Shown here piece after piece: positions 10,302 through 63,514 of a stretch of DNA of 64,000 nt. The position numbers were made by a program, and so were the translations under genes. Below the pieces are notes generated by a model. It had not been told where the DNA came from and ran no database searches. It saw nothing but the letters and a program-made list of their open reading frames with translations. Source of the DNA: an uncultured Desulfobacter sp. (GTDB lineage: Bacteria; Desulfobacterota; Desulfobacteria; Desulfobacterales; Desulfobacteraceae); contig NZ_OY762229.1 of NCBI RefSeq assembly GCF_963665355.1, positions 3,472,001 through 3,536,000 of the forward strand, given 5' to 3'. The first letter of the stretch is position 1, and each line of letters starts with the position of its first letter.

Positions 10302-10400
10302 TTTTATATGCAACTCTCTGTAGACTAAACAGATTTTCCAGACTTCGTCGGGGATTGAGTATAGCCGTTGATATGCCGGACCAGTCCATGGCCGTTACAG
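10302..10400 (+). repeat. Two-hairpin intergenic element, copy A (family 1)
   Basis: Most divergent of five copies. It lies in the 466-bp gap between the antiporter and khpA, which otherwise holds no gene. The first hairpin is TCTGT...ACAGA. The second closes with GGATTG and CAGTCC, where the other copies have GGGCTG and CAGCCC; the G-C to A-T change is compensatory. It ends with TGGCCGTTA, like the TGGCTGTTAT of other copies. Confidence 0.75.
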
Positions 10401-10550
10401 GGAATTTTGAACCTATTGCAAATAGGGCTTGTGATTATAGTCAGTTATGATATTCTATATGAAATTTTCGACAAAGTCAGCCCTATACAGTTACATGTTG
10501 TAGCGTAAGCATCTTATTCTATTGTCATTTTGGCTAAAGGAGAACCGTTA

Positions 10551-10781
10551 ATGAAAGAGTTGATTACACTTATGGCGAAAGCGCTGGTTGATGATCCTGA
10601 AAAGGTTGACGTACAAGAAATCAAAGCCCAGCAGACCCTTGTGCTGGAACTGCGGGTGGCTAAGGAGGACCTTGGGAAAGTGATCGGCAGAAAAGGCCGC
10701 ACAGCCCAGGCCATGCGAACCATTCTTGCCTGTGCCTCTGCAAAGGAGCAGAAAAGAGTTATTCTGGAGATCGTCGAATAG
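10551..10781 (+). CDS. khpA: KH-domain RNA-binding protein KhpA (YlqC family)
   Basis: A small cytoplasmic RNA-binding protein of 76 residues built from a single KH domain. The GxxG loop is visible as GKVIGRKGRTAQAMRTIL, preceded by ELRVAKEDL. The ATG at 10551 has AAAGGAGAA nine bases upstream; a TTG at 10530 is less likely. KhpA binds many RNAs and, with KhpB/Jag, affects cell division in Gram-positive bacteria. In many genomes it sits between rpsP and rimM; here neither gene is adjacent and it stands alone, followed by a strong hairpin. Confidence 0.9.
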   Translation: MKELITLMAKALVDDPEKVDVQEIKAQQTLVLELRVAKEDLGKVIGRKGRTAQAMRTILACASAKEQKRVILEIVE

Positions 10782-10833
10782 AACTTATAATGGTCGTACT
10801 TTGAGTCTATTTCATAAATGACATGGAAACAGT

Positions 10834-19008: not shown

Positions 19009-22000
19009 TCATACTTTTTTGTCTGATTCCTTTTCATTTTTTTTATATCCAATTCCTTTTTGTATCAGTGTGGTTGCCTGGGTGGCATCCACGGGTTTTG
19101 AGAAATAATACCCCTGGATAAAATCGCAACCGATTCCCTGGAGCGTTTCAAGCTGGTCACTGGACTCAATGCCTTCGGCGATCACTTGTAAATCCAAATT
19201 CTGGGCCAAAGTAATAATGGCTTTGGCAATTTCAAGATTTTCATGATTTCGGTTAATATCATCCACAAAGGATTTATCCATTTTTAAGAAATCCAAGGGA
19301 AAGTTTTTCAGGTAAGCCAGGGAAAAATACCCTGTTCCGAAATCATCTATGGCAATTTTAATTCCGCTTTGTTTTAACCGGTTAAGGTGGCCGATTACCG
19401 TCTCAGGCTTATCGATTACAGCACTTTCTGTCAGTTCTGCCACAAGGCAGTGGGCCTCAAGTCCTGTTTCATTCAATGCCGTTTCCACAATTTTTTCAAG
19501 ATTGTTGGAAGAGAACTGCTGGACAGAAATATTGACGCTTACGGTCAGGTGTTTAAACCCGGGGAATTGATCCTGCCATAGTTTAAGCTGCCGGCAGGCG
19601 GTGTTAATCACCCATTGGCCAATGGGGATGATCTGCCCGTTATCTTCGGCAACGGGGATAAAATCCGATGGGGGGATAATCCCCCGGGTGGGGTGAACCC
19701 AGCGGATCAGAGCCTCAAAGCCTTTCAGTCTGCCTGTTTTTGAAATAACAATGGGTTGATAGTGCAGGGTAAATTGATTTTTTTCCAAAGCGGTTTTCAG
19801 ATCGTTTTCAAGCTGCAGTGCATCATGGGCCATTTGTCGAAGCTTTTTGCCGAATACTCTGAATTTTGATTTTCCGGTTGTCTTGGCCCGGTACATGGCA
19901 ATGTCCACATCCCTTAAAATATCATCAGCCCGGATGTAAGAACTTGTATCAACTATTATGCCGATGCTTGCACTAATCGACGCCGTGTTTTCTTTCAGTA
20001 TAAAAGGCCGGGCCGTCTCATCCCGGATTCTTCTGGCAATGGCAATAATCTGTCTGGCGTCACTGATCTCCTCAAGCAGTACCGCAAATTCGTCTCCACC
20101 CAGTCGGGCCACAGTGTCCATACTTCTGACACAGGATAAAAATCTATGAGATGCTTTTTTTAACAGAGCGTCTCCAGTCTGGTGGCCCAGATTGTCATTC
20201 ACCCATTTGAACCGGTCCAGATCGATCAGGAACACGGCCGAATGTGTCTGTTTGTTTCGCTCCTGTCGTTTCAAGGTCTGCATGAGGCGGTCCAAAAACA
20301 GAGCCCGGTTGGGAAGTCCTGTCAAGCTGTCGTAAAAGGCCTTGCGATATAACTGGTCTTCCAGGGTTTTTCGTTGGGTAATATCCTGGTAAATAAAAAA
20401 TTCGCCTTCAATAAGATTGTTGACCATGATGGGAAAGCCAAGAAGAGAAACCGGGATGAGCCGTCCGGATTTATGCCTGCGTTTGGTTTCCTTTTCAATG
20501 GTTTTGCCAGCTGAAATGGCCTGGCGCACGGTGGTCGCCTCAAGGCGCAAATCCTTTGGGATAATCAAATCCAGGTTATGTGCGCCATAAAGCGTTTCGG
20601 CCGGATATCCGAACAAGGTTTCAAATCCTTTATTCGCCTGGATAATAGAGCCGCTGGCATCCGTGGCCACCACGGCCTGGGGGGATCCGTTAAACAGTTG
20701 CTGGAACCGTTCACCCATCTGCTGCAAGGCATCCATCATTTTATTATATCGGCCTGCAATGATGCCCGTATCTGAAAACGGGTCCACAGGTACCCGCAGG
20801 GACAGATCTCCGGTCTGCTCCTGTACCTGCATGACGCGCAGAAAATCAAAGGTTTCGGTTTTGGCTCCGTGTTCGGAAATGTTTAACCCCACCTCCTCCT
20901 CTTGGGCAGATACCCGCAGGGGCGATATCCGGTTTATATTTCCAATGACAAACAAGGGTATAATAAAGCCTGCAAAACAGGCTGCCAGGATACCTGTGAT
21001 TTGAACCATCAGCTGGGATATAAACCCCAGGCCTGTGCCAAGGATTTGCGGATCCCCGAAAAACGCCACGGCAAGAGTGCCCCAGATGCCGCATCCCAAG
21101 TGGACCGGTACAGCGGAAACCGCATCATCAATGTGGTAATGGAAAAGAAGTTCTTCAACGATCAGACACAGTGCTCCGGATACTGCGCCAATAATTACGG
21201 ATTCTGAGATGGTGACGCAATGGCAGCAGGCGGTAATGGCAACAAGGCCGCCTAAAGAGCCGTTGATCAGAAATGTGATTTTAGACGTTTTGTTGACCGT
21301 GTATCCGATGAAAAGGCAAAAGGCCGCACCCGATGAGGCTGCGATAACCGTTTTTACAATAATCCCCGGTACCCGGGCGTCCATGGCCAAAGTCGAACCG
21401 CCATTAAACCCCACCCAGCCGATCCACAAAAGAAGAGTTCCCAGCACAGATAAAGGCAGATCGTTGCCATGAAAGTCTACGGGCTTTCCATTTTTTCCGA
21501 AACGTCCATGTCGCGGGCCAAGAACAATTAAGCTGGCAAGGGCAACCCAGCCGCCAATGCTGTGGACAACGGTGGAACCTGCAAAATCCACAAAACCTGC
21601 CGCCCCCAGCCACCCGGCAGTGTGACCGCTGTCAAGACCGTTCCAGGCCCAGTGACCGAACACCGGATAAATGACGGCGGACAGAAGTATCGCCACCTGT
21701 AGATACGATGAAAATCTCATCCGTTCGGCCACGGCACCTGAAAAAATGGTGGTCGCCGTACCGCAGAACATGGTCTGGAAAAGGAAAAAAGACATCAGAT
21801 GGAAATTATCGCCAAATTCGGGCATGAAACAGGTGGTGCCGATAAGCCCTTGGTGGGAAAGCCCGAACATGATGCCGAATCCGATCACCCAGAACCCCAT
21901 GACCGAAAAGACAAAATCGGCAATATTTTTAATGGCTACATTTATGCTGTTTTTAGGCCGGGTCAGTCCGGATTCAAGGCACATGAACCCCGGCTGCATT

Positions 22001-22059
22001 AAAAACACCAATACGGCCGACACGATGACCCAGAAGTTGTCGATGATTGCACTGCTCAT
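19009..22059 (-). CDS. Ammonium transporter-like sensor fused to HAMP-like, PAS, GGDEF and EAL domains
   Basis: About 1016 residues. Residues 1-395 are an Amt/Rh domain with about 11 membrane helices. The conserved pore histidines appear retained: GSTVVHSIGGW (first) and VPVHLGCGIWGT (second). Next come a HAMP-like linker (about 410-460), a PAS domain (QLFNGSPQAVVATDASGSII), a GGDEF domain with intact active site (RLGGDEFAVLLEE) and an EAL domain with intact GFEALIRW and DDFGTGYFSLAYLK. It is best read as an ammonium-responsive c-di-GMP enzyme, able in principle to make or break the messenger. ATG 22059 follows AGGA and starts a normal Amt N-terminus. No GlnK gene is adjacent. Confidence 0.92.
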   Translation of the reverse strand: MSSAIIDNFWVIVSAVLVFLMQPGFMCLESGLTRPKNSINVAIKNIADFVFSVMGFWVIGFGIMFGLSHQGLIGTTCFMPEFGDNFHLMSFFLFQTMFCGTATTIFSGAVAERMRFSSYLQVAILLSAVIYPVFGHWAWNGLDSGHTAGWLGAAGFVDFAGSTVVHSIGGWVALASLIVLGPRHGRFGKNGKPVDFHGNDLPLSVLGTLLLWIGWVGFNGGSTLAMDARVPGIIVKTVIAASSGAAFCLFIGYTVNKTSKITFLINGSLGGLVAITACCHCVTISESVIIGAVSGALCLIVEELLFHYHIDDAVSAVPVHLGCGIWGTLAVAFFGDPQILGTGLGFISQLMVQITGILAACFAGFIIPLFVIGNINRISPLRVSAQEEEVGLNISEHGAKTETFDFLRVMQVQEQTGDLSLRVPVDPFSDTGIIAGRYNKMMDALQQMGERFQQLFNGSPQAVVATDASGSIIQANKGFETLFGYPAETLYGAHNLDLIIPKDLRLEATTVRQAISAGKTIEKETKRRHKSGRLIPVSLLGFPIMVNNLIEGEFFIYQDITQRKTLEDQLYRKAFYDSLTGLPNRALFLDRLMQTLKRQERNKQTHSAVFLIDLDRFKWVNDNLGHQTGDALLKKASHRFLSCVRSMDTVARLGGDEFAVLLEEISDARQIIAIARRIRDETARPFILKENTASISASIGIIVDTSSYIRADDILRDVDIAMYRAKTTGKSKFRVFGKKLRQMAHDALQLENDLKTALEKNQFTLHYQPIVISKTGRLKGFEALIRWVHPTRGIIPPSDFIPVAEDNGQIIPIGQWVINTACRQLKLWQDQFPGFKHLTVSVNISVQQFSSNNLEKIVETALNETGLEAHCLVAELTESAVIDKPETVIGHLNRLKQSGIKIAIDDFGTGYFSLAYLKNFPLDFLKMDKSFVDDINRNHENLEIAKAIITLAQNLDLQVIAEGIESSDQLETLQGIGCDFIQGYYFSKPVDATQATTLIQKGIGYKKNEKESDKKV

Positions 22060-22086
22060 TACAGCTGTTTTCCTATTTTTTTTTTG

Positions 22087-22183
22087 TTTTATATGAAAGA
22101 TTGGGTAAGCCGCCAAAATCTTTCAAACTTCGTTGTGGGCTGAGCCCGGCAGTTGATATGTCAAATCAGCCCATGGCTGTTAT
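22087..22183 (+). repeat. Two-hairpin intergenic element, copy B (family 1)
   Basis: It occupies the middle of the 336-bp gap between the divergent Amt-fusion and OppF-type genes; the rest of the gap is AT-rich with no gene. Hairpin 1 is GAAAGATT / AATCTTTC. Hairpin 2 closes with GGGCTGA / TCAGCCC. It starts TTTATATGAAAG and ends TGGCTGTTAT. Confidence 0.85.
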
Positions 22184-22395
22184 ATCGTAAATAGGTTTGT
22201 TTTTTGGTCTTGATATGTGTGCGATTATCTTTATTCTATTACATTTATTAAATCAAAAGAAAATCTATTAGGGGAAAACTATAGCTTTGTCAACAAATCA
22301 TCAATAAATTGAACCAGCTTGTTTTTTGCACATCCGCTGTGCTATTTTCCCGGTGCGGACTATATTGTAAAAGAGTGTTTTCCAGGAAAGGGTAA

Positions 22396-23397
22396 ATGGG
22401 CGAATCAGACTGTGAAGTAGATTGTCAACCGATTCTGGATATCCAGGATCTTAAGAAATATTTTCCGGTTACCTCGGGTGTTTTCCTGCGCCGGACCGGG
22501 AATGTCCATGCGGTGGATGGTATCAGCTTTTCGGTGTTCAAGGGGGAAACCCTTGGCATTGTGGGCGAATCCGGATGTGGTAAAACCACCCTGGGACGGT
22601 GTATCATGGGGTTGTACCCTTTGACTGCCGGTCGTATTCTGCTGGATGGAAAACCATTGGCTGCCATGACCCGGAAAATGCGTAAAGAGTTTTCAACCCG
22701 GGTGCAGATGATATTTCAAGATCCTTTCGAATCCTTAAATTCCCGGCAGACCGTGCGCCAGATCCTGGAAGAAAAATTTCGCATTCACGGGGTGTCCCAA
22801 CAGAAAACAGCCATGCAGGTTGATTCCCTACTGGACCAGGTGGGCCTTGATTCCGGGGCACTGGCCAAATATCCCCATGAGTTTTCAGGCGGTCAGCGCC
22901 AGCGGATCGGTATTGCCCGGGCCATCAGCATGACCCCGCAGATTGTGGTATGTGATGAGCCTGTTTCCGCCCTGGATGTCTCGGTCCAGTCAAAAATTTT
23001 GAATTTATTGCTGGATCTTCAGTCTGCCATGGGCTTGACCTTTCTGTTTATTTCCCATGACCTGGCCGTGGTCCGCCACATGTCCGACCGCATAATTGTC
23101 ATGTACCTGGGCCGGATCATGGAAATTGCTGATGCACAACGTTTGTATAACCATCCGTGCCATCCTTATACAAAGGCTTTGCTTGAGGCGATCCCGGTAC
23201 CCGATCCGGACCTCTGTTCAAGCAGAATCCCGCTTAAAGGTGAAATTCCTTCGGCAGAACATCCGCCCCCGGGATGCCGCTTTTCCTCCCGCTGTCCTGA
23301 TGCTCGTCCTCTGTGTTTTGAAAAGATCCCGGTGCTTTCTGCACATTTTAATGACCCTGGGCACCTGACGGCCTGTCATTATCCCCTGTCCGGTTAA
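22396..23397 (+). CDS. Oligopeptide/dipeptide ABC transporter ATPase (OppF/DppF type)
   Basis: Second ATPase of a peptide importer, 333 residues. The N-terminus has the OppF hallmark KKYFPVTSGVFLRRTGNVHA. Walker A is GESGCGKTTLGRCI, the Q-loop MIFQDPFESLNSRQTV, the signature FSGGQRQRIGIARAI, Walker B IVVCDEPVSALDVSVQSKIL and the switch FISHDLAVVRHM. The C-terminus has PPGCRFSSRCPDARPLCFE. It pairs logically with the OppD-type ATPase at 17580, from which it is separated by the cold-shock and Amt-fusion genes. No permease gene follows. Confidence 0.93.
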   Translation: MGESDCEVDCQPILDIQDLKKYFPVTSGVFLRRTGNVHAVDGISFSVFKGETLGIVGESGCGKTTLGRCIMGLYPLTAGRILLDGKPLAAMTRKMRKEFSTRVQMIFQDPFESLNSRQTVRQILEEKFRIHGVSQQKTAMQVDSLLDQVGLDSGALAKYPHEFSGGQRQRIGIARAISMTPQIVVCDEPVSALDVSVQSKILNLLLDLQSAMGLTFLFISHDLAVVRHMSDRIIVMYLGRIMEIADAQRLYNHPCHPYTKALLEAIPVPDPDLCSSRIPLKGEIPSAEHPPPGCRFSSRCPDARPLCFEKIPVLSAHFNDPGHLTACHYPLSG

Positions 23398-23625
23398 TTT
23401 TGAGTTTTCAAGCAGATTGATTCGACTGCCCCGAACGTTTTGAAGAGGAGAGGGGGCTTGCGAAAAAACAGGCATAATGTTAAAAGTTTCCAAAAATTTA
23501 GGGGAACGGACTTTATGGATACCTTTGTCCTTTTTAAGTTTTAATTTTTAAAAAAGATTAAGGAAACGCTTCCCCCATAAATTAAAATACCGGCCCATGG
23601 CAGTGGGTAAAATCGGGAAGAGGAA

Positions 23626-24411
23626 ATGAGCAGCATTGTAAATATCTGGCATGGCATAAAAGAGTTCAATGGACGTTTAAGGGGATTTTCAAGCCCCTTT
23701 TCCATTGAGGCTTTATGGCCTGTGGCCGCAGGTATTGCCATTTCAATTTTTCTTGGATCCGGGTGTACGGATCAAAAAAAAGTTGAACTAAAAGGCGTCA
23801 TCATTAAGGCCGGCACCGTGGAAATCAGCCGGGCTGACTTTGCCAGGGAGCTGGAGGTCAAGTGGGCCAACTACCCCTATGATATAAAGGACAGGGCCGA
23901 TGAATACAATGCCATGGTAATGGATCTTGTGTCGGATCTGTCCGATGAGGCTGTGATGCTGGCCGCAGCTGCAGCCAAGGGAATTGATGTCGATGCCAAG
24001 GAACTTGATTTGGCTCTTGCGGATTTTAAAAAAGACTACCCCGAAGACAGCTTCGAGCAAATGCTCCTTGAAAGGGCCATATCATACCCAGCCTGGAAAA
24101 AGAGATTAAAAAAGGATCTGGTCATCCGAAAATTAATTTTGCAGGATCTGGTGGCATCCCAGGAAATTCACCCCGATGACATGATCGCCTTTTATGACCG
24201 CGTTACAGGCCAGGGCGGGGGGCAGGGCAATAATAATAATGACGATAGCAATTCAGAAATAATGGATGAAAATAATCTGGTGTTCAGGCTGCGGATGGAA
24301 AAAAGCCAGGAAATTTTTGGCGAATGGATGCAGAAATTACAGGACATCTATCCTGTATACATTGACAAACTGGTGTTGAGTTCCTTTTTAATGGACGCTG
24401 AAAATCAATAA
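23626..24411 (+). CDS. SurA N-terminal-like chaperone lipoprotein without PPIase domain
   Basis: A 261-residue envelope protein. A long N-terminal stretch leads to a hydrophobic segment and lipobox (ISIFLGSGCTDQKK, Cys near 47). The rest is helical and matches SurA_N-type chaperone regions (VEISRADFARELEVKWANYP, VSDLSDEAVMLAAAAAKGID, YPAWKKRLKKDLVIRKLILQ). A low-complexity linker GGGQGNNNNDDSN near 200 stands where a PPIC domain would be expected in other family members. It is 10 bp upstream of surA and likely acts in the same outer-membrane protein pathway. The start could be internal; ATG 23626 follows AGAGGAA. Confidence 0.8.
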   Translation: MSSIVNIWHGIKEFNGRLRGFSSPFSIEALWPVAAGIAISIFLGSGCTDQKKVELKGVIIKAGTVEISRADFARELEVKWANYPYDIKDRADEYNAMVMDLVSDLSDEAVMLAAAAAKGIDVDAKELDLALADFKKDYPEDSFEQMLLERAISYPAWKKRLKKDLVIRKLILQDLVASQEIHPDDMIAFYDRVTGQGGGQGNNNNDDSNSEIMDENNLVFRLRMEKSQEIFGEWMQKLQDIYPVYIDKLVLSSFLMDAENQ

Positions 24412-24421
24412 GAGTGGATGT

Positions 24422-25366
24422 ATGAAAAAAAAACGAGGCATAAAAGTAGTCATTTTTGTACTTGCGTTTTTCTGGGCAAAAAATTGTCTGGCCCAGGAGG
24501 TGGTTGACCGAATTGTCGCCATTGTCAATGATGATATTATCACACTGTCCACCCTTGATACGGCTGCCGCCCAGTACCGGGAAAATATCGAGGCCTCCCA
24601 GGAATCATCAGTCAGGAAAAAAGAGGTCATGGCGCAAATGCATACCCAGGTTCTCAACCAGCTGGTGGAGAGCAGTCTGGTGATTCAGGAAGCCAAGCGG
24701 ATGGGCATTGCCGTGGATGACATTGATGTGAACGATGCCGTGGAAAATTTTAAAAAAGAGCACTCTCTGGACCAGGAAAATCTGGAACGTAGCCTGGCTG
24801 CCCAGGGAATGACTCTTGAGCAATACCGTGGCAAAATCCGGGAGCAGATTCTCCAGAGCATGGTCTTTGCAAGGGCGGTCCGCTCCAAGATCGTTGTCAC
24901 GGACGAGGAGATAAAAGCCTATTACAACAGCCATGAGCAGGAATTCAAGGCCAAGAAGAAATATTATTTGAAAAATATAATCGTAAAGGATTCCAGGGAC
25001 CTTTCCACGGTCCGGGAAAAGCTCAAAAACAATGGTGATTTTTCACAAGTCGCCAAAGATTATTCCATCGGCTCCAATGCCGCTTCCGGTGGTGAACTTG
25101 GTGAATTTGACATATCAAGCTTCAGTGCCGTGATCAAAGAGGCGCTCAAAGGGGTTGGCAAGGGCCAGTACACCGAGCCCGTTGATATGGGGGATTCTTT
25201 CCAGATCCTTTATGTGACCGATATCATTTCCCAGGGACAGGGCACTGTCCGGGAGGATGTGGAAAAACAGATCCATGATATTCTGTTCCGGGAACAGGGG
25301 GAGGTCCAGTTCAAAAAATGGATGGAAAATCTTAAAAAAAGCGCACACATTAAAATAATGCTATAA
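24422..25366 (+). CDS. surA: Periplasmic chaperone/peptidyl-prolyl isomerase SurA
   Basis: A 314-residue periplasmic chaperone for outer-membrane proteins. The signal peptide is residues 1-24 (VVIFVLAFFWAKNCLAQE). The SurA_N domain begins VVDRIVAIVNDDIITLSTLD, its usual text. One parvulin PPIase domain lies around residues 175-275 (KYYLKNIIVKDSRDLSTVRE, then DYSIGSNAASGGELGEFDIS). E. coli SurA has two parvulin domains and 428 residues; this shorter one-domain form is common in Desulfobacterota. It is the second gene of an apparent operon leading to mgtE, recO and a GHMP kinase gene. Confidence 0.92.
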   Translation: MKKKRGIKVVIFVLAFFWAKNCLAQEVVDRIVAIVNDDIITLSTLDTAAAQYRENIEASQESSVRKKEVMAQMHTQVLNQLVESSLVIQEAKRMGIAVDDIDVNDAVENFKKEHSLDQENLERSLAAQGMTLEQYRGKIREQILQSMVFARAVRSKIVVTDEEIKAYYNSHEQEFKAKKKYYLKNIIVKDSRDLSTVREKLKNNGDFSQVAKDYSIGSNAASGGELGEFDISSFSAVIKEALKGVGKGQYTEPVDMGDSFQILYVTDIISQGQGTVREDVEKQIHDILFREQGEVQFKKWMENLKKSAHIKIML

Positions 25367-25402
25367 TCTTTCCGATACTGTCTGCCCAAAGGAAATTTAC
25401 CC

Positions 25403-26767
25403 ATGCAAAAAGAGCAAATCCAGATACTTGAGACCAGCATTACCCGGTTGTTGCGCCGGGGAGCCAACAGGCAGCTGCTCAATATCATAAAAAAGACACA
25501 CATGGCAGACCTGTCCATTGTTTTTGAGAATATGACTCCCCTGAACCGGGAAAAGCTGTTCAATCTGCTGGATAACCCCGAAGACATTGCCCTGCTGTTT
25601 TCACACCTGTCCGAAAACACCTTTGTGGAAATTGTTAAAATCGTAGATTTTGATAAGCTGGTTACGGTGTTTGATCACATGCCCTCGGATGATGCCGCCG
25701 ATCTGCTCGGGTGTCTGGACGAGGAACTGTCCGACAAGATTCTGTCCAAAATGAAAAAGGAAGAATCCTACAATGTCGAGCAGATTATGAGCTATGATGA
25801 GGATACTGCCGGCAGCCTCATGGTCAAGGATTTCGTGGCCCTGGAAGAAGACGTCAAGGCCAAGGAGGTTATTGAAGCATTACAGAACAAGTATCTGGAT
25901 GTTGAAATGCCTTTTTACATCTATGTCATCGATACTTACGGCAAGCTTGTGGGCGTCAGTTCCCTTCGTCAACTGGTGGTGGAATCTCCGGACAAGCCTC
26001 TCAAAGCTTTCATGGCCACGGACATTGTCTCCGTCAAACCTTACACTGACCGGGAAGTGGTTGCCCGCCTGGTGTCCCGTTATGACTATCTGGCCATTCC
26101 CGTTGTGGATGATGATAATCGTATCATCGGTATTGTCACGGTGGATGACGTCATCGATATTCTGCATGAGACCGCCACGGAAGATATGTTGAAGATGGCG
26201 GGCGTGGGTGAGCATTATGTGGAAACCCAGACCATCATCAAAGGGACCCGGATCCGGATGCCGTGGCTGCTGGCAAGCTGTCTTGGCGGCATTGCAAACT
26301 CTTTTATCATTGGCGGATTTGAATCCACCCTGGCAAAATTCACAGGGCTTGTTGCCTTTATCCCCATTATCATGGGTATGGGCGGCAATATCGGCACCCA
26401 GAGTGCCACCATTATGGTGAGGGGCATTGCCACAGGTCAGGTGAATATCCGGGATTTTACAAAAATGTTGACAAAGGAGCTGGGAGTCGGGTTTATTCTG
26501 GGGATGCTGTATGGCATCCTGATCGGTTCTGTGGCCAAGTTTCGGTTCATGGCGGAACCTTTTTCCTGGGCTTTGGGCTTAAGTGTCAGCATTTCCATTG
26601 TGGCAGCCATGAGTGTGGCAGCACTTGTGGGGACAACAGTGCCGGTTATTTTTGAAAGGCTCAATATTGATCCGGCCGTTGCCACAGGGCCGTTTGTTAC
26701 GACGTTCATGGATCTTTCCAGTGTTTACTGTTATTTTACGATTTCAAAAATTTTGCTTGGATTCTGA
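25403..26767 (+). CDS. mgtE: Magnesium transporter MgtE
   Basis: Mg2+ channel/transporter of the inner membrane, 454 residues. Residues 1-130 are the MgtE N domain (superhelical repeats such as HMPSDDAADLLGCLDEELSD). Residues 135-255 hold two CBS domains (YDEDTAGSLMVKDFVALEED and SRYDYLAIPVVDDDNRIIGI) that gate the pore by Mg2+. Five membrane helices follow with the ion-pathway text IPIIMGMGGNIGTQSATIMV and PVIFERLNIDPAVATGPFVT. Its TGA overlaps the recO ATG. A plug helix link (KGTRIRMPWLLASCLGG) is present. Confidence 0.96.
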   Translation: MQKEQIQILETSITRLLRRGANRQLLNIIKKTHMADLSIVFENMTPLNREKLFNLLDNPEDIALLFSHLSENTFVEIVKIVDFDKLVTVFDHMPSDDAADLLGCLDEELSDKILSKMKKEESYNVEQIMSYDEDTAGSLMVKDFVALEEDVKAKEVIEALQNKYLDVEMPFYIYVIDTYGKLVGVSSLRQLVVESPDKPLKAFMATDIVSVKPYTDREVVARLVSRYDYLAIPVVDDDNRIIGIVTVDDVIDILHETATEDMLKMAGVGEHYVETQTIIKGTRIRMPWLLASCLGGIANSFIIGGFESTLAKFTGLVAFIPIIMGMGGNIGTQSATIMVRGIATGQVNIRDFTKMLTKELGVGFILGMLYGILIGSVAKFRFMAEPFSWALGLSVSISIVAAMSVAALVGTTVPVIFERLNIDPAVATGPFVTTFMDLSSVYCYFTISKILLGF

Positions 26768-27600
26768 TGACATATTCGGCCATGGCTTGTGATTTCAACA
26801 CCGAGGCCATATTACTGAGGAAAATCGAATATGGAGACCACGACCTGATCATCACCTTTCTTACCCGGGACCGGGGTAAGATCAGCGTGATGGCAAAAAA
26901 CGCCAAAAAGAGCGTGCGCAGGTTTTCCGGTGCCATGGACCTGTTTTCGGTCAATCATATCCAGTGTTCCTTTCCCAAAAAGAACAGGGACGCCATGATC
27001 AACCTGTGCCAGACGGTTCTTGAAAACGGGTTTTCCCAGATCAGGTATGATGTGGTGAATACGGCCTATGCTTCGTATTGGACGGAAATTGTCACCCAGT
27101 GGCTGGAGGAGGGCAAAGCCCAACCCGAGATTTTTGAACTGCTTTACACGGCCCTTGAAATGGTGGACAAGGGGCTTATCCCCACAGAGGTGATAAGCCT
27201 GCTGTTCCAGATCCGTTTCATGCGTCTGTCCGGGTTTTCTCCCGGGCTTGACCAGTGCGATGACTGCAGTACAGGCATTGAGGGTATAGATTCTGCCAGG
27301 GTGTGGTTTGATTTCAAGGCCGGGCGGGTTGTCTGCCCGAAATGTACCGGCCATGAAAGTTATGCCCGGGAACCGGCTGTACCTTTCGGCGGAAGTGCCC
27401 GGGGGTGCTGGGTGTCCAAGGGAACTTTGAAGCAACTGTCCTGGATCAATACCGTGGAAATGGCCCGAGCAGACCGTATCAGGTTCTCCGGCGTTGCCAT
27501 CCGGGAGGGTGAAACCCTGCTGGAATCCTTTATCCCTTTTCATATTGGACGAAGTTTTAACAGCTTGAAATTTTTGCATAAGATGAGGTCTGAAATATGA
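26767..27600 (+). CDS. recO: DNA repair protein RecO
   Basis: Loads RecA at gaps with RecR and anneals single strands; cytoplasmic, 277 residues. The N-terminal OB fold shows TEAILLRKIEYGDHDLIITF and LTRDRGKISVMAKNAKKS. A helical middle and a zinc-finger region follow, with cysteine pairs in DQCDDCSTG and VVCPKCTGHE. The ATG overlaps mgtE's stop by one base; an ATG five codons later is possible. Its stop overlaps the next gene's start (ATGA). Confidence 0.94.
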   Translation: MTYSAMACDFNTEAILLRKIEYGDHDLIITFLTRDRGKISVMAKNAKKSVRRFSGAMDLFSVNHIQCSFPKKNRDAMINLCQTVLENGFSQIRYDVVNTAYASYWTEIVTQWLEEGKAQPEIFELLYTALEMVDKGLIPTEVISLLFQIRFMRLSGFSPGLDQCDDCSTGIEGIDSARVWFDFKAGRVVCPKCTGHESYAREPAVPFGGSARGCWVSKGTLKQLSWINTVEMARADRIRFSGVAIREGETLLESFIPFHIGRSFNSLKFLHKMRSEI

Positions 27601-28637
27601 ATCTTGCGCCCATACTTGAAAAAAAACAGATCCACGTTTGTGTACCCTGCCGCATTGATTTTGGCGGCACCCTGGATATTGCCACATTTTATCTGCCCAT
27701 GGCACACCTGAAGCCGGCCACCCTGAACCTGGCCCTTGACCTGCGCACCCATGTCTATCTGTATCCCTGGGAACAGGGCCGCATCAAAATTTCCTCCAGG
27801 GGTTTTGACACCATTGAGCGCGGTCTTGATGACAAAGGGTGGGACAGTCCCATGGGACTGATGTTTGCTGTTTTCCAGTATTTTAATGCCCATGGGGTGC
27901 ATCTGCACATTGAATCGCAATCTCCGGTTCGAAGCGCCCTTGGCGGGTCATCCTGTGCCGCCGTGGCCATTATTGCCGCGGTTTATGAGGCCTTGGAAAA
28001 ACAGATCGAGCCCGAGCACATCACCTGGTTGGCCCATCATCTGGAAAATGCCGTGGCCGGTGTCCTGTGCGGTGTCCAGGACCAGGCGGCTGCGGCGTTT
28101 GGCGGAGTGAACCTGTGGGAATGGACCTTTGGGGAGAAAAGTCCGGAATTTATTCGCCACCCGGTGTTTGACTCATATGAAAAGCAGGAGAGACTTAACC
28201 GGCATCTTATTGTGGCCTATTGCGGGATTCCCCATGAATCAAGGGATATCAACTCCCGGTGGGTTAATACTTTTAAATCCGGCAAAGCCTGTGATGCCTT
28301 TGAGCGCATCTCTGTGCTGACACGGCAGTTCGCCGAAGCCCTGGGTGCTTTCTCCTTTAAAGAGGCTGCACGGTTGATGAACCAGGAAACGGCCGTGCGC
28401 TGCGAAATGACCCCGGATGTTCTGGACAATACGGGCATAAAGCTGTGGGAATCGGCAAAGGCACAGGGATGCGGGGCCAGATTCACGGGGGCAGGCGGGG
28501 GCGGCTGCCTGTGGGCCATTGGGGAGGCCCCAGACATTGACAAGCTGAAAACACAGTGGCAGAAAATTCTTGATCCCATTGACGGGGCAATGATACTGGA
28601 TACGGCCATAGACCCCCAAGGCATTTTGGTTCATTAG
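27597..28637 (+). CDS. GHMP-family sugar kinase
   Basis: An ATP-dependent small-molecule kinase of 346 residues. GHMP motifs: CRIDFGGTLDIA near the start (substrate loop), the ATP-binding SPVRSALGGSSCAAVAIIAA near 108-127, and the C-terminal GARFTGAGGGGCLWAI. The early RIDFGG form and overall length resemble the D-glycero-D-manno-heptose 7-phosphate kinase and L-fucokinase-like branch more than galactokinase, but the sugar cannot be named from sequence alone. It is translationally coupled to recO. Its TAG stop is directly followed by a palindromic repeat that may end the operon. Confidence 0.85.
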   Translation: MNLAPILEKKQIHVCVPCRIDFGGTLDIATFYLPMAHLKPATLNLALDLRTHVYLYPWEQGRIKISSRGFDTIERGLDDKGWDSPMGLMFAVFQYFNAHGVHLHIESQSPVRSALGGSSCAAVAIIAAVYEALEKQIEPEHITWLAHHLENAVAGVLCGVQDQAAAAFGGVNLWEWTFGEKSPEFIRHPVFDSYEKQERLNRHLIVAYCGIPHESRDINSRWVNTFKSGKACDAFERISVLTRQFAEALGAFSFKEAARLMNQETAVRCEMTPDVLDNTGIKLWESAKAQGCGARFTGAGGGGCLWAIGEAPDIDKLKTQWQKILDPIDGAMILDTAIDPQGILVH

Positions 28638-28697
28638 TGTTTGAACGAAAAGTTACCCATCTGCGCCTTGCATCTGGGTAACTTTTCATTAAAACAC
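28637..28697. repeat. Palindromic element after the GHMP kinase (family 2, short form)
   Basis: A 13-bp perfect stem GAAAAGTTACCCA (28647-28659) / TGGGTAACTTTTC (28675-28687), with flanking GTGTTT / AAACAC outer pairing. The left edge AGTGTTTG and the CACCCATCTGCG core match the minus strand of 1189-1315. It begins at the TAG stop codon and likely ends transcription of the surA-to-kinase operon. Confidence 0.75.
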
Positions 28698-28967
28698 GGG
28701 GGCCATTGAGGTTTTACATTAATCAAAGGAGACAATATATTATGGCAGGATATGATCCCGAACAGGATAGGAAAATAGCTGAGTGGAAAAATGAAGAGAC
28801 CGGTTTGATAATCTCCATCATGCAGTACGGCACCGGGGAACCCAAACTTCAGGTCGGTCCCAGAATTCTGAAGAAAAAAGACGGCTCGGACCGCGCCCCC
28901 ATGAAGGCGGGTCGGCTCTCTGTGGAAGATGTCATGTGGCTGTATGACATAATTGATGAGATTAAAG

Positions 28968-31764
<2,797 letters not shown>

Positions 31765-31906
31765 TAAAAAAAGGAGAGCAAGGTCATTGCCCCGCCGGAA
31801 AAAGGTGGAATTCAACCTTAAAAGTACAACTTAAAAGATGTCAAACACTGTTTTGACATGGGCTCTATTTCAGGCCAATCCAATCTATAAAAAGGAGGAA
31901 TGTATT

Positions 31907-32302: not shown

Positions 32303-32441
32303 CGGCATGTCCACAAAGCTATGCAAAAACCTCAAAATACGAAAAGCCACCGGCCATGGAAAATCCCACAGCCTTTTACAAACGATGAATTGGGTGGTTA
32401 TTCGCATCCTTTCCTCATGCTGTTGCCACAGACATTGCCCC

Positions 32442-34073: not shown

Positions 34074-34170
34074 TTTTATAAGAAAGTCTGTGTAACCTAC
34101 ACAGATTTTTCAACTTTCGTTGTGGGCTGAGCCTGGCAGCTGATATGTCAGGTCAGCCCGTGGCTGTTAT
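34074..34170 (+). repeat. Two-hairpin intergenic element, copy C (family 1)
   Basis: Hairpin 1 has outer GAAAGT / ACTTTC and an inner perfect CTGTGTA / TACACAG. Hairpin 2 has GGGCTGA / TCAGCCC and CCTGGCA / TGTCAGG around a 7-base loop. It starts TTTATAAGAAAG and ends TGGCTGTTAT. It lies in the 321-bp gap between the flavoprotein gene and tRNA-Asp; the rest of that gap holds only the tRNA terminator. Confidence 0.85.
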
Positions 34171-40604: not shown

Positions 40605-40605
40605 T

Positions 40606-40920: not shown

Positions 40921-41227
40921 CAGGTTTTGAACAAAACGGGTCAAGGGTTTACCGGCTGTCTGTTCACGCATCTGGCATCCCATTTTGGCAATGGCCTGTT
41001 CATCACCGTGACCGGCAAGAATCATTACGGCCAAGGCCAGGCCGTGAGTGTTATTTCATTCAATTATAAATCAAGGATAAATTCTTTACTTTTAGAACTC
41101 CTGTTGATATTCAAAAATTAATCTCATTTTCAGGGCCGCTTGCTGTATAATCATTTTAATATTGCCACAGAGGCACCGTCTCCCCAACGCAAAAAAAAAG
41201 AGCAGTTTTATAAATTAGGGATCTGAA

Positions 41228-43874: not shown

Positions 43875-43970
43875 ATAACAGCCATGGGCTGACCTGACAT
43901 ATCAGCTGCCAGGCTCAGCCCACAACAAAGTTTGAAAGATCTGAGTGACTTACCCAGTCTTTCATATAAA
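43875..43970 (-). repeat. Two-hairpin intergenic element, copy D (family 1), overlaps the atzF stop
   Basis: Minus-strand copy. Hairpin 1 is GAAAGA / TCTTTC with inner CTG / CAG; hairpin 2 is GGGCTGA / TCAGCCC plus CCTGGCA / TGTCAGG. It begins TTTATATGAAAG, and the TGA inside that start is the stop codon of the allophanate hydrolase gene (43962-43964). Confidence 0.88.
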
Positions 43971-45746
43971 TGAACAGCATTGAAGATAAGTTCGCCAGCC
44001 GCCAAATTTCGTGATTTCATTGCCGGATTCCTTTACAACCGGCTCTGCGATAAAGCCTGAAACCCAGCTGCCGTCGGATAATTCCAATTTTCCAATGCCC
44101 AGAGGGTGGGGGATCTGTTGGACAAATCGGCCGAATGCCGATGCCGAAAGCGAATAAATTTCAACTTCAATGGCTGCTCCGGCTTTCTCATCACGGATCA
44201 ATCCGGGTTTTGGAGGGTCGCTTTTCAGGGCAAACATACGATAGACATTGGCCGTATGGGTTTTTTGTAATAGGAGCGCACCCAGGTCGGTTAACTGGTG
44301 GTGGAGGGGCAATCCTTTAAGATGGGCACCACAGACTGCAAGCTGCACGGTGTCTCTGGGTAAAGATTGTGCAGGAAGCGGCGGCGCATCCGACCCGCAT
44401 CCCATGGGAAGGGCCGCCTGGGCATGAAGAAATGCACCGGCCTGGAGCAGTTGCAAGTCCTCAAACGCTTGGCCCACAAGGGTGACGCCAAAGGGAACAG
44501 TCTGTGTCAGACCTGTGGGAACGGCCAGGCTGCAGTAATCCAGTAGGTTCATATAGTTGGTATAATACCCCAAATTGCTATTCAGCCGGACAGGATCGGC
44601 ATTCACCGCATCAATGGTATAACAGGTGCCGGCCGTGGGAGTGACCAGGAAATCAACTGACTCTAAGATTGCATCGGTTTTTTTCTTAAGCGCCTGCAGC
44701 TTATAAATGCAGGAGAAAACCTCCCGGGCGGTCCATGGTTTGCCGTCGCAGATGATCTGGCGGGTTACGGGAACGCCGGCATCCGGGTTTTCCAGTAAAA
44801 AATCGCCAACCGCAGCGGCTCGTTCCGCCACCCATGGGCCCTGGTACAACAACTGCGCTGCATCAAGAAAGAAAGAAAAATCAATTTCGATGCAGGTACC
44901 GCCCATACCAAGGAGCAGATCAATACTTTTTTTAAAGCAATGTTCATAGTCTGTATTGCCAAAAAAATTAAGATCTTTTGCCGCCGGCACCCCAAAGGTG
45001 AACCTATATTTATTAAAGGTTTGTTTCAAGGCTCCGGGGGCCTTCCGGGAAAAGGGATCCTGTGGATCAAAAACGGCGGCAGTCTGAAAAATTTTTTGCG
45101 CATCTTTGGCACACAAAGCAAAAATCGATACACAGTCCAGGCTGCGGCAGGCAGGGACCACGCCTGTGGTGCTGAGCAGGCCCTTGCTGGGCTTTACCCC
45201 AAGAATGTTGTTAAACGCCGCCGGCACCCGTCCCGACCCTGCGGTATCCGTTCCCAGGGAAAAACTGCACATTTCCTTTGCCAGGGCAACGGCCGAGCCG
45301 CTGCTGGAGCCCCCTGAAATATAATCGGGATGAAAGCTGTTTTTGCAGGCACCATATGGGGATCGTGTTCCCACAAGGCCCGTGGCAAATTGATCCATGT
45401 TGGTTTTGCCCACGGGGATGGCACCGGCATTGATCAGCTGCTCAACCACAAAGGCCGATTTTTCAGGCGTATAGCTGTATTCCGGGCACCCGGCCGTGGT
45501 GGGAATGCCTGCCAGATCAATATTGTCCTTAATGGCAAAGGGGATCCCGTACAGTGGAAGCGTTTCGGGTGTTTCACCTTCCAGTCGTTTAAGATAAGGC
45601 GCCACCTCATCTTCAGTTAACAGGCGGATCCAGACATTGTTTTGATCCTTGCGGCAGATTGGCATCAGGCTGCCAATCAGGTCGCCGGGTGTCAGGGTCC
45701 GGTCTTTATAACTGTTGTGCAGGTGTTCAATGGTCAGATTCATCAT
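43962..45746 (-). CDS. atzF: Allophanate hydrolase
   Basis: Hydrolyses allophanate to ammonia and CO2, the last step of the carboxylase pathway; cytoplasmic, 594 residues. The amidase-signature catalytic set is present: Lys in YGIPFAIKDNIDLAGIPT, cis-Ser and nucleophile Ser in DYISGGSSSGSAVALAKE and GTDTAGSGRVPAAFNNILGV. A C-terminal domain typical of AtzF follows (VAVCGAHLKGLPLHHQL-like text to IGKLELSDGSWVSGFIAEP). It overlaps the carboxylase stop codon, so the two are coupled. The last residues LQCCSFI and the stop are encoded at the edge of repeat D, so the original C-terminus may have been altered by the element. Confidence 0.94.
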   Translation of the reverse strand: MMNLTIEHLHNSYKDRTLTPGDLIGSLMPICRKDQNNVWIRLLTEDEVAPYLKRLEGETPETLPLYGIPFAIKDNIDLAGIPTTAGCPEYSYTPEKSAFVVEQLINAGAIPVGKTNMDQFATGLVGTRSPYGACKNSFHPDYISGGSSSGSAVALAKEMCSFSLGTDTAGSGRVPAAFNNILGVKPSKGLLSTTGVVPACRSLDCVSIFALCAKDAQKIFQTAAVFDPQDPFSRKAPGALKQTFNKYRFTFGVPAAKDLNFFGNTDYEHCFKKSIDLLLGMGGTCIEIDFSFFLDAAQLLYQGPWVAERAAAVGDFLLENPDAGVPVTRQIICDGKPWTAREVFSCIYKLQALKKKTDAILESVDFLVTPTAGTCYTIDAVNADPVRLNSNLGYYTNYMNLLDYCSLAVPTGLTQTVPFGVTLVGQAFEDLQLLQAGAFLHAQAALPMGCGSDAPPLPAQSLPRDTVQLAVCGAHLKGLPLHHQLTDLGALLLQKTHTANVYRMFALKSDPPKPGLIRDEKAGAAIEVEIYSLSASAFGRFVQQIPHPLGIGKLELSDGSWVSGFIAEPVVKESGNEITKFGGWRTYLQCCSFI

Positions 45747-54499: not shown

Positions 54500-55064
54500 C
54501 CCATATGGAATGTCCGGGACGATGAACTGTTCAACCAGCTGCCTTCATTTTTCCGGGAAGGACTTCTGGTGGAAGGGGATCTTCTTTGAAAACCTCCAGG
54601 ATAAATATGTGCTGGTCAAGCCGGATATCATCTCCCTTAAAACTTTGAAGCTTGTCCTGGTTAATGCGGGCATGCTGGGCAATGAAGAAGAGACCCCCCA
54701 GGTTCTTGTCAATATATTTCGAAAGTCCCAGGCCGAATTTAAGATTCAGACCCACTTTTACGGGTATGACGGCCGGGGCACTGATCCCACCTATTTTGAC
54801 TGCTGTTATGCCTACAATTTAGGGCTTACGGCCTTTCACCTGATCACAGGCAGCGCCACCGGCCAGATGGCGGCCATCATTAACCTGGAAAAACCCTTAG
54901 ACCAGCGGCAGCCGGCCGGAATCCCCATTGCCCGGCTCATGCACCTTGAGGAACGCAAAGGCCGCCTGGAGCTGGTTATAAAAAAAAGTGTTGTTGATCT
55001 TGAATCCGGCGCATTTAAGGTGTTCAAAGCTGTAAGGGAGGACTGGGTGGCGGCCTGCGCTTAA
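54500..55064 (+). pseudogene. Truncated, internally deleted copy of pfp
   Basis: Bases 54500-54590 nearly match pfp 39755-39840. About 172-180 bp of pfp are then missing, and from about 54592 to 55061 the sequence again follows pfp 40028-40490 with scattered changes. The first segment is out of frame with the second, so no PFP can be made; an open frame of 184 residues (54510-55064) joins foreign text to YVLVKPDIISLKTLKLVLVN and ends AVREDWVAACA. The 3' end of the copy lacks the last 35 codons of pfp. Confidence 0.88.
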
Positions 55065-61400: not shown

Positions 61401-63079
61401 ATGCAGAGTACAATGGCCATATTTCGTTTATGCAGCTGGTTCTCTTCATTGACCATTCGCCAGTTCAACAGGGTAAAAAACTGTTCAATGGGTTTCATAA
61501 CCCGCGCTTTGGCATCATGGTATTCTTTCCCGTGCAGCAAATCACGCGCCATTATCACATTCGGTGCCCTTTTGATCGTAAATCGGCCCTCTTCGTCCTG
61601 ATACACTCCTTTCACTGCGTTTATGGCAATGTTTTCCAGGTTGACCAGATCGTCGGATGCTGCTTTGGCTTGAAGAAATTTGGACATCTCTTCTTCGCAG
61701 AGTCCAAGATCCATGATCTTTTCCACAAGACTGTATACCTCTCCTTTGGGTTTGGGCAGACCATTGTCGTTAGCCACATAATCCCAGTAGAAATGGGAAC
61801 ACCCCTGGGGATGGGCCTTTACTCCGTCACGGATGGCGAGGATATCCCGGAAAGCCTGTTCATATTTGGGATCCGCAGTCACCGTATATGTGTGGGCAAA
61901 ATGTGCCAGATCGTCCGAGGACTGTTTAAGTTCAAAGGCCAGATTCAATGCCTGAACGCTCCTGTCGTTAACGGTGTCCACATGGGTGTGGGTCCGGGAT
62001 AACAACACAACAAATACCGAACTGCTGGAAATCAGCGCGGCAAAAATAAAAAAGATTAAAATCAAAGAATCCCGGATGGAAAGATGACGGGGCCGTCCTT
62101 TAGCCAGCCAGGCAATGAAGATGCTGACGGCTATACAACCAAAAACAACACCAAGGCTGTTTAACAGAAAGTGGGGGATATCAAACTGGTCTATTGGGGT
62201 CCGGGATAGTCGGGTCAATCCTGCCGCCGCAGGCACCCATTTTTCAAAAAGAGTTTGTTTTTCATTTTCATCGATGGCTGATATTGCTTTATTGATGATG
62301 GAAACCAGCTGGGGCCAGTCCTTACGAATAGAGTAGCCCGATCTTAAAACGAATTCTTCATCGGTAAATACATGGGCAATGGCAAGACTTTGATGAAAGA
62401 TTTTTCGCAGCTGTCCAAACTGGTGCAAGGGAATCAAAGCAAAATCCGCTTTGTCCTCGACAACAAACTGGAAGGCTTCTTTTTCGGAATTTGCGTCAAT
62501 GGTTCGTACATCTTCGATGGCGGCGACGATTTTGCCTGTCCAGGCATTTCCTTTCAGGTGGGCGATCCGTTTGCCTTTCAGGTCTGCTCTGGATAGAACC
62601 ATACCCGCTTTTTCCGGAAGGCCGGCTGCCGCATATTCCACAACATTGTATGAATCGGAAAACAGAAAATATTTGCGGCGGCTTTCGATCACTGATGATT
62701 CGGCCAATCCGTCAATTTCATAACGTTCTGCCTGTTTAACAATCTGATTCCATGGGCCTGCAACCAATTGGATATTTGCCCCGGTCAACCGGTTGATCCG
62801 GGCCAGGAAATCAACATCATATCCTTTTAACCCGCCGTCACTATTAATATATATGAAAGGAGCCCAGGTCTGGCCGATTCCCAGCCTTATCACCGGGTGC
62901 TCGGATAACCAGGTGTTTTCCTCGGGCAGAAGTGTGTGGATAACCGCAGCAGATTGTTTTTCAGTTCCTTGGGATAGATCTGCCGTTTTGGCCGACGGCA
63001 GCCGGACAGACAGGGACATTAGGCCCCCAGCAAACAGGACGCATACAGCAGCTAACCCCCTGGAGGTTATCTTTTTCAT
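58436..63079 (-). CDS. Large hybrid sensor kinase (SBP-type sensor, HAMP, three PAS, HisKA, HATPase, two receivers)
   Basis: A 1547-residue membrane kinase. A signal/anchor precedes a family 3 solute-binding domain (about 55-290; LGIGQTWAPFIYINSDGGLK, GLAESSVIESRRKYFLFSDS). Membrane helices near 305-325 and 340-360 flank a second helical periplasmic region (365-560), then another helix and HAMP (about 590-640). Three PAS domains follow (ATIESTTDGILVVDLHQKIT; TITDTKGIIQYVNPKFTELT; a third near 890). HisKA is FLANMSHEIRTPMNAIIGMN, HATPase has GGTGLGLAICKSLARL, and two receivers carry LLDFQMPGMNG and LMDLQMPVMDG. No Hpt domain. The ligand may be a small molecule bound by the SBP domain. Confidence 0.93.
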   Translation of the reverse strand: MKKITSRGLAAVCVLFAGGLMSLSVRLPSAKTADLSQGTEKQSAAVIHTLLPEENTWLSEHPVIRLGIGQTWAPFIYINSDGGLKGYDVDFLARINRLTGANIQLVAGPWNQIVKQAERYEIDGLAESSVIESRRKYFLFSDSYNVVEYAAAGLPEKAGMVLSRADLKGKRIAHLKGNAWTGKIVAAIEDVRTIDANSEKEAFQFVVEDKADFALIPLHQFGQLRKIFHQSLAIAHVFTDEEFVLRSGYSIRKDWPQLVSIINKAISAIDENEKQTLFEKWVPAAAGLTRLSRTPIDQFDIPHFLLNSLGVVFGCIAVSIFIAWLAKGRPRHLSIRDSLILIFFIFAALISSSSVFVVLLSRTHTHVDTVNDRSVQALNLAFELKQSSDDLAHFAHTYTVTADPKYEQAFRDILAIRDGVKAHPQGCSHFYWDYVANDNGLPKPKGEVYSLVEKIMDLGLCEEEMSKFLQAKAASDDLVNLENIAINAVKGVYQDEEGRFTIKRAPNVIMARDLLHGKEYHDAKARVMKPIEQFFTLLNWRMVNEENQLHKRNMAIVLCITTLIIVTIGFSIYVFVLLRRRIILPLSAIEKGVKAIKKGDYTHRINLAVSDEIGSLGLAFNNMAQSIKENTSRLHATIESTTDGILVVDLHQKITNYNNRFLEIWQIDPKVMETGDDAVVLQTIMTKLDNSQAFLSRVNQIYEHLEREDFTTLMLLDGRVVERYSRPQQLGDEIIGRVWSFRDVTERYKSDAELKKLYQAVEASPASVTITDTKGIIQYVNPKFTELTGYTAREATGKNTSLLKSGIHPSEFYRELWSTIKAGNVWHAEICNRKKDGTLYWELTAIAPVKTAQGEISHYVAVREDITRRREMEMALKKSKEQLTDAAKISNLGYFSFDFRTKTFTADDLLWRQLGSSIQEEGGDTIRMDHYFERFCAPQDTDLITQHIQKALSAKEVLEDEIEYRAKLKDGTIRNFHVRYRVDLDESGVPRSGYGFHQDVTQRKKTEIELLRAKEAAESATRAKSDFLANMSHEIRTPMNAIIGMNLLALKTDLTPRQRDYLSKIDQSAKALLTIINDILDFSKIEAGKLKIESIPFFMDDVLDNLANLISDKAQEKGLELIFDIDPDFPQGLVGDPIRLGQILLNLCTNAIKFTDKGEILLSSAVESQNQAEILARFSVCDTGIGLSYEQQGKLFKSFSQADTSTTREYGGTGLGLAICKSLARLMGGEIGLASRPGLGSTFWFTVRLGVHSLGKNSSKNYAVPAAHFKGQRILIVDDNENTQFILKAMAEHFGFDVTTASSGNLALETIKSTPLDHPFSLVLLDFQMPGMNGIETSRRIKDTAGHRDVNTVIMVTAHGWEELMNQAADVGIEHFLVKPVNQSALFDIMMDAFGRKVEHRQPAMEDDMIIPKNFNTVKGARILLVEDNEINQDVAVEILQDEGFLVSVAENGQQAVEMIKSPASPGFDAVLMDLQMPVMDGYEATRQLRKDNRFDRLPIIAMTADAMIGVKEKVLEIGMNDYVSKPIEPDDLFQVLAKWITPEKQE

Positions 63080-63418
63080 TGTTCAACTCTCATGGTTAAC
63101 TTTTGTTTTTTCTCTGCGTCATTAACACCAGTACGTTTTAATTGGATGGGCATAAAGGGCCGGCAGCGGGGAGATCTCATCATTGTTATGGCCTGGCTCA
63201 TACGTCCTGATGATACATATGAAGATCAAAAGCGGATTGCGTTTATAATATGGGTGTTGGATGACGCCGTGTTTTGTCACACTTATATTTACTCTATTTG
63301 AAACCTATTTTTATGTCAACCATAGATCCCTCCTGAAAATCCTCATCAGTCCAACGGGGTATCTCCCGTTGGAGTCAGGGTCAAATAAATTTTCTTGACT
63401 TCCTTTTTTGTTTCATTG

Positions 63419-63514
63419 TTTTATAAGAAAGTCTGTGTAACCGACATCGAACTTTCAACCTTCGTTGGGGCTGGGCCTGGCAGATGATATGCCGGATCAG
63501 CCCGTGGCTATTAT
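63419..63514 (+). repeat. Two-hairpin intergenic element, copy E (family 1)
   Basis: It lies in the 500-bp gap between the divergent kinase and epimerase genes. Hairpin 1 is GAAAGT / ACTTTC; hairpin 2 is GGGCTGG with TCAGCCC and CCTGGCA with TGCCGGA. The gap also holds an 8-bp perfect hairpin CCAACGGG / CCCGTTGG (63351-63372); nothing else was seen. Confidence 0.82.

Follow-up and report, generated by a model that had tools for sequence, protein, structure and literature searches.

A widespread, structurally constrained mobile repeat with two hairpins in Desulfobacter and related genera

Among described repeats, the PATEs of Haloquadratum offer a close counterpart to the element reported here: in the portions of PMC3119063 devoted to their structure, they lack terminal inverted repeats, carry palindromes near both ends, cause no target duplication, are too short to encode a transposase and occur in many copies, and their palindromes match those of resident IS605-type transposons. 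For Desulfobacterium autotrophicum HRM2, the 2009 genome report counts 2357 exact DNA repeats of ≥50 bp (PMC2702500), and its passages on repeats do not describe the present element; the main text of PMC11109978 defines a class of mobile or repeat motif candidates whose supplementary lists might hold its motif. A search of the literature on this group of sulfate-reducing bacteria, outside of which the supplementary motif lists of PMC11109978 lay, returned no description of such a repeat. The element is a non-coding DNA of ~92 nt that folds into two hairpins and is present in five copies in a 64,000-nt stretch (the window, C2:3472001-3536000) of the 5.64-Mb genome of an uncultured Desulfobacter sp. 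It behaves like a non-autonomous hairpin-ended element of the PATE or REP type. The mobile repeat is real, widespread and structurally constrained, and we favor, with slightly better than even confidence, the explanation that it is a non-autonomous family moved in trans, most likely by an HUH-type enzyme.

Stem covariation and an arm with two partners

In an alignment of 29 copies from the genome itself (own copies), made by sequence alone, paired cells amounted to 89.9% against 87.7% in shuffled versions, cells changed on both sides numbered 20 against 8.0, a count that none of 500 shuffles reached, and pairs with such double changes numbered 10 against 5.6 (3 of 500). A second alignment comprised 31 copies, including 24 from other genera. 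It was fitted to the structure model, which favors pairing, and was compared with shuffles that ignore relatedness; on those terms, 85.4% of cells were paired against 67.5%, 148 cells were changed on both sides against 51, double changes occurred at 23 of 28 pairs against 16.7, and the covariation score was 0.373 against 0.127, with slid versions reaching at most 0.087. Between genera the stems are almost completely changed with pairing retained, and the stem letters are fully replaced among rows (for example GGGCAA, TGGCAGA, GGGCCCCC, TGTC and TGCCC). The constant parts are TTTATATGAAA on the left, TTTCA followed by TT[T/C]GTTG in the linker, and CATGGCNGTTAT on the right, single rows deviating from each. 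A first-pass annotation of this DNA had proposed from the five copies that stems change while pairing is kept, and compensatory change was found both within the genome, where double-changed cells exceeded all 500 shuffles, and, much more strongly, between genera.

Mismatches carry some information on which strand folds. Across 96 copies from the genus and its relatives, hairpin 2 held G-T in 111 cells and A-C in 61, cells that are not independent of one another; such an excess is expected if the named strand is the folding one, and weakly suggests that it is.

The two hairpins had already been read in the first-pass annotation, which missed a terminal pairing and the TT insertion site described below. 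The 3′ arm of hairpin 2 (arm b, CNGCC) is complementary both to its stem partner, arm a, and to a terminal segment c (GGCNG) that directly precedes the TT of the insertion junction, the b-c loop being mostly CAT. Among 112 distinct copies (24 copies without a recognizable end, 16 duplicates and 1 partial copy being left out), the variable position was Watson-Crick between b and c in 90, whereas shuffles, which ignore relatedness, gave a mean of 45.2 and a maximum of 61; the letters were A-T in 54, G-C in 30 and T-A in 5, and all five b-c pairs were Watson-Crick in 74 of the 112. The same letter of b was Watson-Crick with arm a in 60 of 93 copies (shuffled 40.3, maximum 51). For 18 rows from the cross-genus set the signal was weaker, with 12 of 18 against a shuffled mean of 6.1 and a maximum of 14, so that some shuffles attain the observed count, and the b-c pairing was lost in some genera where b lacks GCC. 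These counts indicate that hairpins 1 and 2 and the competing terminal dyad are kept by selection even as the letters of the stems drift; the dyad itself could be kept for a protein or for a hairpin, two options that sequence cannot separate.

Copies, spread and insertion sites

With copy B of the window (Table 1) as query, the genome returned 45 places with a best non-self match at E 2.3e-42, which places the family far beyond chance. A covariance model built from the 29 own copies gave at least 150 matches in the genome, every listed match having an E-value of 2.7e-4 or better, so that the five copies initially reported fall far short of the total. In a contiguous 1.6 Mb (C2:3000001-4600000), 51 model matches at E ≤ 0.1 and four tandem partners from the whole-genome model search made up a set of 55 copies, and the median nearest-copy identity among 61 own copies was 0.948. 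Chance similarity or an alignment artefact is accordingly a reading of almost vanishing probability: the cross-genus alignment does favor pairing by its construction, but the sequence-only own alignment lay above every shuffle on four of five measures, the slid controls collapsed, and the copy-B search, the number of model matches and the covariation already refute it.

A first model search of 59 genomes, the genome itself included, detected the element in 17 of 18 other genomes of the genus (the exception being G012), in 9 of 17 genomes from the family's other genera and in 2 of 23 from the rest of the order. After the model was rebuilt from 32 copies (13 from other genera), a class-wide search gave matches in 63 of 291 genomes and 25 of 123 genera, of which lone matches near E 1e-4 to 1e-3 may be chance. 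An exact match to the core occurred in 34 stretches of named records, comprising 2 in Desulfobacter postgatei, 31 in one Desulfobacterales metagenome-assembled genome, and one in a Phycisphaerales contig that may be contamination. No element was found in the viral, plasmid and phage collections searched, and no family in Rfam 15 scored over its gathering threshold, in keeping with the earlier remark that the element was not recognized as a named family.

High copy number with close similarity, together with empty sites, shows mobility. Copy C occupies the site ..AG-TTTTATAAGAAAG...GTGGCTG-TTATGGTG, which is empty in G006 (..CG|TTATGGTG) and G015 (..GA|TTATGGTG). The filled site at C2:4206397 reads ..CC-TTTTTATATGAAAG...GGCTG-TTGTTGG and is empty in the six relatives aligned, as ..CC|TTGTT in the two closest and ..CC|TCGT[T/A/C] in the other four, and a paralogous empty site for C2:4115356 reads ACAGAATA|TTATAAAG. 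At C2:2342755, where the element is likewise missing from relatives, these read CTTTT|TGG or ATTTT|TTGG and the filled site ends GGCTGTTATTGG. Copies were also absent from relatives, with diverged junctions, at 555874, 4752011, 1014138 and 4303261 (8 loci aligned, two with other sequence there), as well as in a weaker case at 3581466; for copy D, the loci of five relatives held no element but conserved only one flank, and thus do not form a clean empty site. The joined-flank searches covered 7 pairs in one round, with matches across the junction aligned for 3 of them, and eight pairs plus part of a ninth in a second, with 4 aligned; such matches are also present for C2:1685575, outside the aligned set. 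The sequence carrying the paralogous empty site, around GAGACCTTTGCACGGGT, is itself repeated (C2:3073422 and C2:4115356) and looks like another repeat family.

In the empty sites, insertion is next to TT, without a target duplication of more than ~2 nt and with the TT not separable from the element's own T's; the base before TT is G, A or C, and inspection of the alignment revealed no terminal inverted repeats. On the 3′ side in the genome itself, the element is followed by TT (mostly TTAT), the third letter being A in 86% and the fourth T in 74% of copies (n = 43, tandem copies included). Tandem neighbors have the TTAT junction in common and their stems are mostly different, although one pair is nearly identical, so that insertion into an existing end fits better than duplication alone. 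Both possibilities raised by the first-pass annotation, selection on a fold and a mobile miniature element with a retained fold, therefore hold, the former through compensatory changes and the latter through copy number and empty sites. No autonomous copy with separated ends was found in the 1.6 Mb, where we noted several weak right-end matches and one truncated left end without an adjoining transposase (C2:3771993-3772023, minus strand), well matched over 32 model positions before it runs into unrelated sequence.

To the left, a T run 1-9 long in 42 single own copies exceeds what empty targets supply, and own copies show no clear motif beyond it. Such a run could be the A-tail, on the other strand, of an RNA-mediated retroposon, whose structured RNA would be reverse transcribed and inserted at T-rich sites; the fold conservation is strong enough for an RNA, and a group II intron adjoins an integrase in the genome. 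We nevertheless consider this origin improbable, as the hairpin 2 asymmetry favors folding of the strand that would lack the A-tail and there is no long target duplication.

Genomic context was assessed for the 42 insertion places scoring ≥ 40 in the 1.6 Mb, with genes called by a longest open reading frame (ORF) rule and three short ORFs overlapping the element by >60 nt dropped. Although coding sequence makes up 87% of this stretch, 41 of the 42 places lay between called genes and one in a called ORF; without dropping short ORFs, 5 of 55 copies were inside a called ORF. Gaps were divergent in 14 cases, co-directional in 22 and convergent in 5, against 11.4, 23.2 and 6.4 expected from intergenic length, and co-directional gaps held 10 sense and 12 antisense copies. 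This lack of preference in context or orientation argues against a fixed regulatory task. A host-functional dispersed element, kept for its fold as a terminator, mRNA stabilizer or protein-binding site, would account for the intergenic placement and for the strong covariation, part of which lies in a dyad to which a protein dimer could bind; it sits poorly with the random orientation and context and with the absence from orthologous sites examined, and we give it little credence. One terminator-like match does fall inside copy C (hairpin 1, minus strand, 34105-34087, in a scan of window positions 22000-41999), but copy B has none and the region contains many matches of this kind (36 against 24.4 shuffled), and a terminator role was rejected.

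With respect to replication, if the origin is taken to lie near 1.6 Mb, 90 of 150 listed copies agree with it in strand (p 0.018 under this premise). We draw nothing from this bias because the origin is only assumed to lie there and dnaA is at 4.08 Mb, where three dnaA-like genes stand in a row (C2:4079412-4085672), each over the curated DnaA cut-off, and where GC skew showed no clear sign change.

Within the window, the five copies were recovered with the coordinates, orientations and order of parts originally given (Table 1), and an independent repeat search placed A, B, C and E in a single direct family, with B/D and C/D as inverted pairs. The minimum-energy fold of copy A is not the two hairpins (z -0.51 relative to shuffles); copies B, C, D and E folded better than shuffles, with z of -3.75, -6.45, -5.67 and -2.73, respectively. 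The hairpin 1 stem GAAAGT/ACTTTC, cited earlier for both C and E, is found in E, whereas that of C is GAAAGTCTGTGT/ACACAGATTTTTC. The description of all copies as intergenic is broadly right, but some overlap gene edges, as where copy D covers the last bases of the ORF at 43962-45746. Elsewhere in the window, in its ORF-rich part, two stretches, one of 85 nt at 99% and the other of 300 nt at 95%, are repeated ~14.6-14.7 kb apart (39756-40316 and 54500-54884), likely by a recent duplication. The first part of the ORF at 19009-22116 (minus strand) is matched by ammonium transporter models and its last part by GGDEF/EAL-type c-di-GMP models.

Table 1. Positions of the five copies in the window and of the parts of copy B
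Feature	Position	Strand	Remarks
Copy A	10302..10400	+	decayed; right end GGCCG|TTACAG
Copy B	22087..22183	+	full element
Copy B hairpin 1	22094..22125	+	TGAAAGATT...AATCTTTCA
Copy B conserved linker	22126..22135	+	AACTTCGTTG; GTTG directly 5′ of hairpin 2 foot
Copy B hairpin 2	22136..22173	+	arm a TGGGCTGA, arm b TCAGCCCA
Copy B competing terminal dyad b-c	22167..22179	+	CAGCC-CAT-GGCTG, abuts junction TT
Copy C	34074..34170	+	missing at same site in two relatives, G006 and G015
Copy D	43875..43970	-	genome's best-scoring copy
Copy E	63419..63514	+	

Candidate enzymes and a proposed route of movement

Y1 transposases are among the candidate enzymes for moving the element, and 17 of 19 genomes of the genus have a Y1 match; the genome studied here has five, two of them without an internal stop and over 120 bits. 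Around 33 Y1 loci, which represent part of the genus's Y1 genes and for the genome itself a partial reading, no related ends were consistently present, and no linked tnpA-REP (RAYT) gene was found in the genome or at the genus Y1 loci. A link to Y1 transposases was rejected given no clear relation to copy number, no fixed arrangement and different ends. The concern that the element might equal a known transposon end was likewise not borne out, as resident IS200-type ends differ from it in the three genus genomes compared.

Assignment to an HUH-type enzyme is inferred from anatomy, namely strand-specific hairpins, no inverted repeats, no duplication and a short T-rich target, and several observations weigh against it. 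No parent transposon or transposase could be tied to the element at Y1 loci, through IS200 ends or in the 1.6-Mb scan, and the resident IS200 ends are unlike it. The number of Y1 matches shows no clear relation to copy number: G001 has 31 element matches and no Y1 match (in a genome 56% complete), and G012 has 4 Y1 matches and no element. Complete copies do lie in the flanks of 5 of the 33 Y1 loci, one of them in the genome itself, but in an inconsistent arrangement. Unlike IS608, the element has no conserved target tetranucleotide on its left, the relatives at C2:4206397 having ATCC or TTCC before the insertion point. At C2:2342755 the relatives' site does not account for the AT that follows GGCTGTT, and the final letters there may belong to element or to target. 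Furthermore, hairpin 1 lacks the G-T/A-C asymmetry of hairpin 2 (49 against 49), and across genera the G-T excess is not significant (36 against 21; 25 against 15).

Integrons provide another way to move a folded strand, and their attC sites carry paired R'' (RYYYAAC) and R' (GTTRRRY) boxes. The element could be a gene-less, cassette-like unit on whose folded single strand an integron integrase acts, using secondary G|TT-like sites: it begins with TT and ends with G before TT, its folded site has a bulged base, it forms tandem arrays, and 12 of 19 genus genomes have integron integrases scoring above the curated cut-off, the genome studied here at three places. Of the seven letters of the right end, GTTATAT, six agree with R', but there is no matching R'', no R'' box complementary to the end being present and the linker varying (TTTCAAAC, TTTCATGTTTT, TTTCAATC), and the base before TT in empty sites may be G, A or C. 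Copy C2:1685575 is the nearest known copy to the integrase gene at C2:1692062, ~6.4 kb away, a spacing that is unremarkable at one copy per ~37 kb; the 8 kb surrounding that integrase hold a group II intron match but no copy. G006 (listed as 100% complete) has at least 70 copies and no integrase over the cut-off. We regard integron-type mobility as a live rival, though a rather improbable one. The locus itself (C2:1692062-1695900) comprises an integron integrase at 473 bits, an adjoining long palindromic sequence, a match to group II intron D1-D4-6 and a 265-aa ORF.

We return to the HUH-type explanation, under which a trans-supplied enzyme, most likely an HUH single-strand nickase-transposase comparable to those of IS200/IS605 and REP systems, would recognize the folded strand, cut out the element as [TT(T)ATATGAAAG...GGCNG] with each cut falling before TT, and join it to a target opened before TT. 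Arm b, pairing with arm a or with terminal c beside the cut, may act like the guide sequences of IS608; among guide-like features, GTTG is conserved 5′ of the hairpin 2 foot and arm b complements the end, but b lies within the stem and not 5′ of it. The GGCNG|TTAT end of an existing copy would make a good target, giving head-to-tail arrays, and the left T run could vary because |TT is available at several positions inside it. A bolder proposal is that the family represents an undescribed mechanistic type across the class, in which one arm switches between its stem and the element's own terminus at the cut site, the element thereby supplying a guide that evolves along with it, with no recognizable transposase of its own and no duplication; we hold this unlikely, if worth stating.

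Stems replaced between genera, with ends and pairing fixed, would form a natural record of an enzyme that recognizes shape and ends and not stem sequence, and the double-duty arm hints specifically that self-pairing may select the site of the cut. In practical terms, the family marks intergenic regions in a group of sulfate-reducing bacteria, and small RNAs or riboswitch candidates might be annotated by mistake where its copies lie.

Comparison with known systems

Set beside miniature inverted-repeat transposable elements, the element differs, by inspection of the alignment, in having no terminal inverted repeats shared with a transposon. Pae-1 and Efa-1, as outlined in PMC2267715, are similarly multi-copy with two adjacent stem-loops, but they belong to other organisms and are placed next to the element by description and not by sequence. 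With integron attC sites it shares a unit ending in G before TT, a folded single strand and arrays, and it differs in lacking, by inspection, an R''/R' pair and in not requiring G before TT at its targets.

REP and BIME repeats, in the descriptions drawn from PMC6006769, PMC8266576 and PMC3733652, resemble the element as intergenic palindromic repeats that occur in clusters and in which a conserved tetranucleotide, GTTG in the present case, immediately precedes a hairpin foot on its 5′ side. REP sequences, however, have a GTAG/GTGG tag and a palindrome of 20-50 nt, compared with GTTG and ~92 nt with two hairpins here, and REP/BIME units form inverted pairs, whereas the tandem copies here are head-to-tail and have no linked RAYT. 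IS200/IS605 elements, to the extent that their published features were compared, likewise carry two subterminal hairpins on a single strand, lack inverted repeats, cause no duplication, use a short T-rich target and have a sequence complementary to the end; the present element differs in having no gene and no fixed left target tetranucleotide, and in being unlike the resident IS200 ends compared. It fits every PATE feature tested against the structural account of those elements but the decisive one, a related IS605-type transposon, and it departs from them in the covariation of its stems across genera, the ends staying constant, and in an arm that can pair with two partners. Within small transposase-free hairpin-ended elements, this double-duty arm at the junction is what makes the family unusual.

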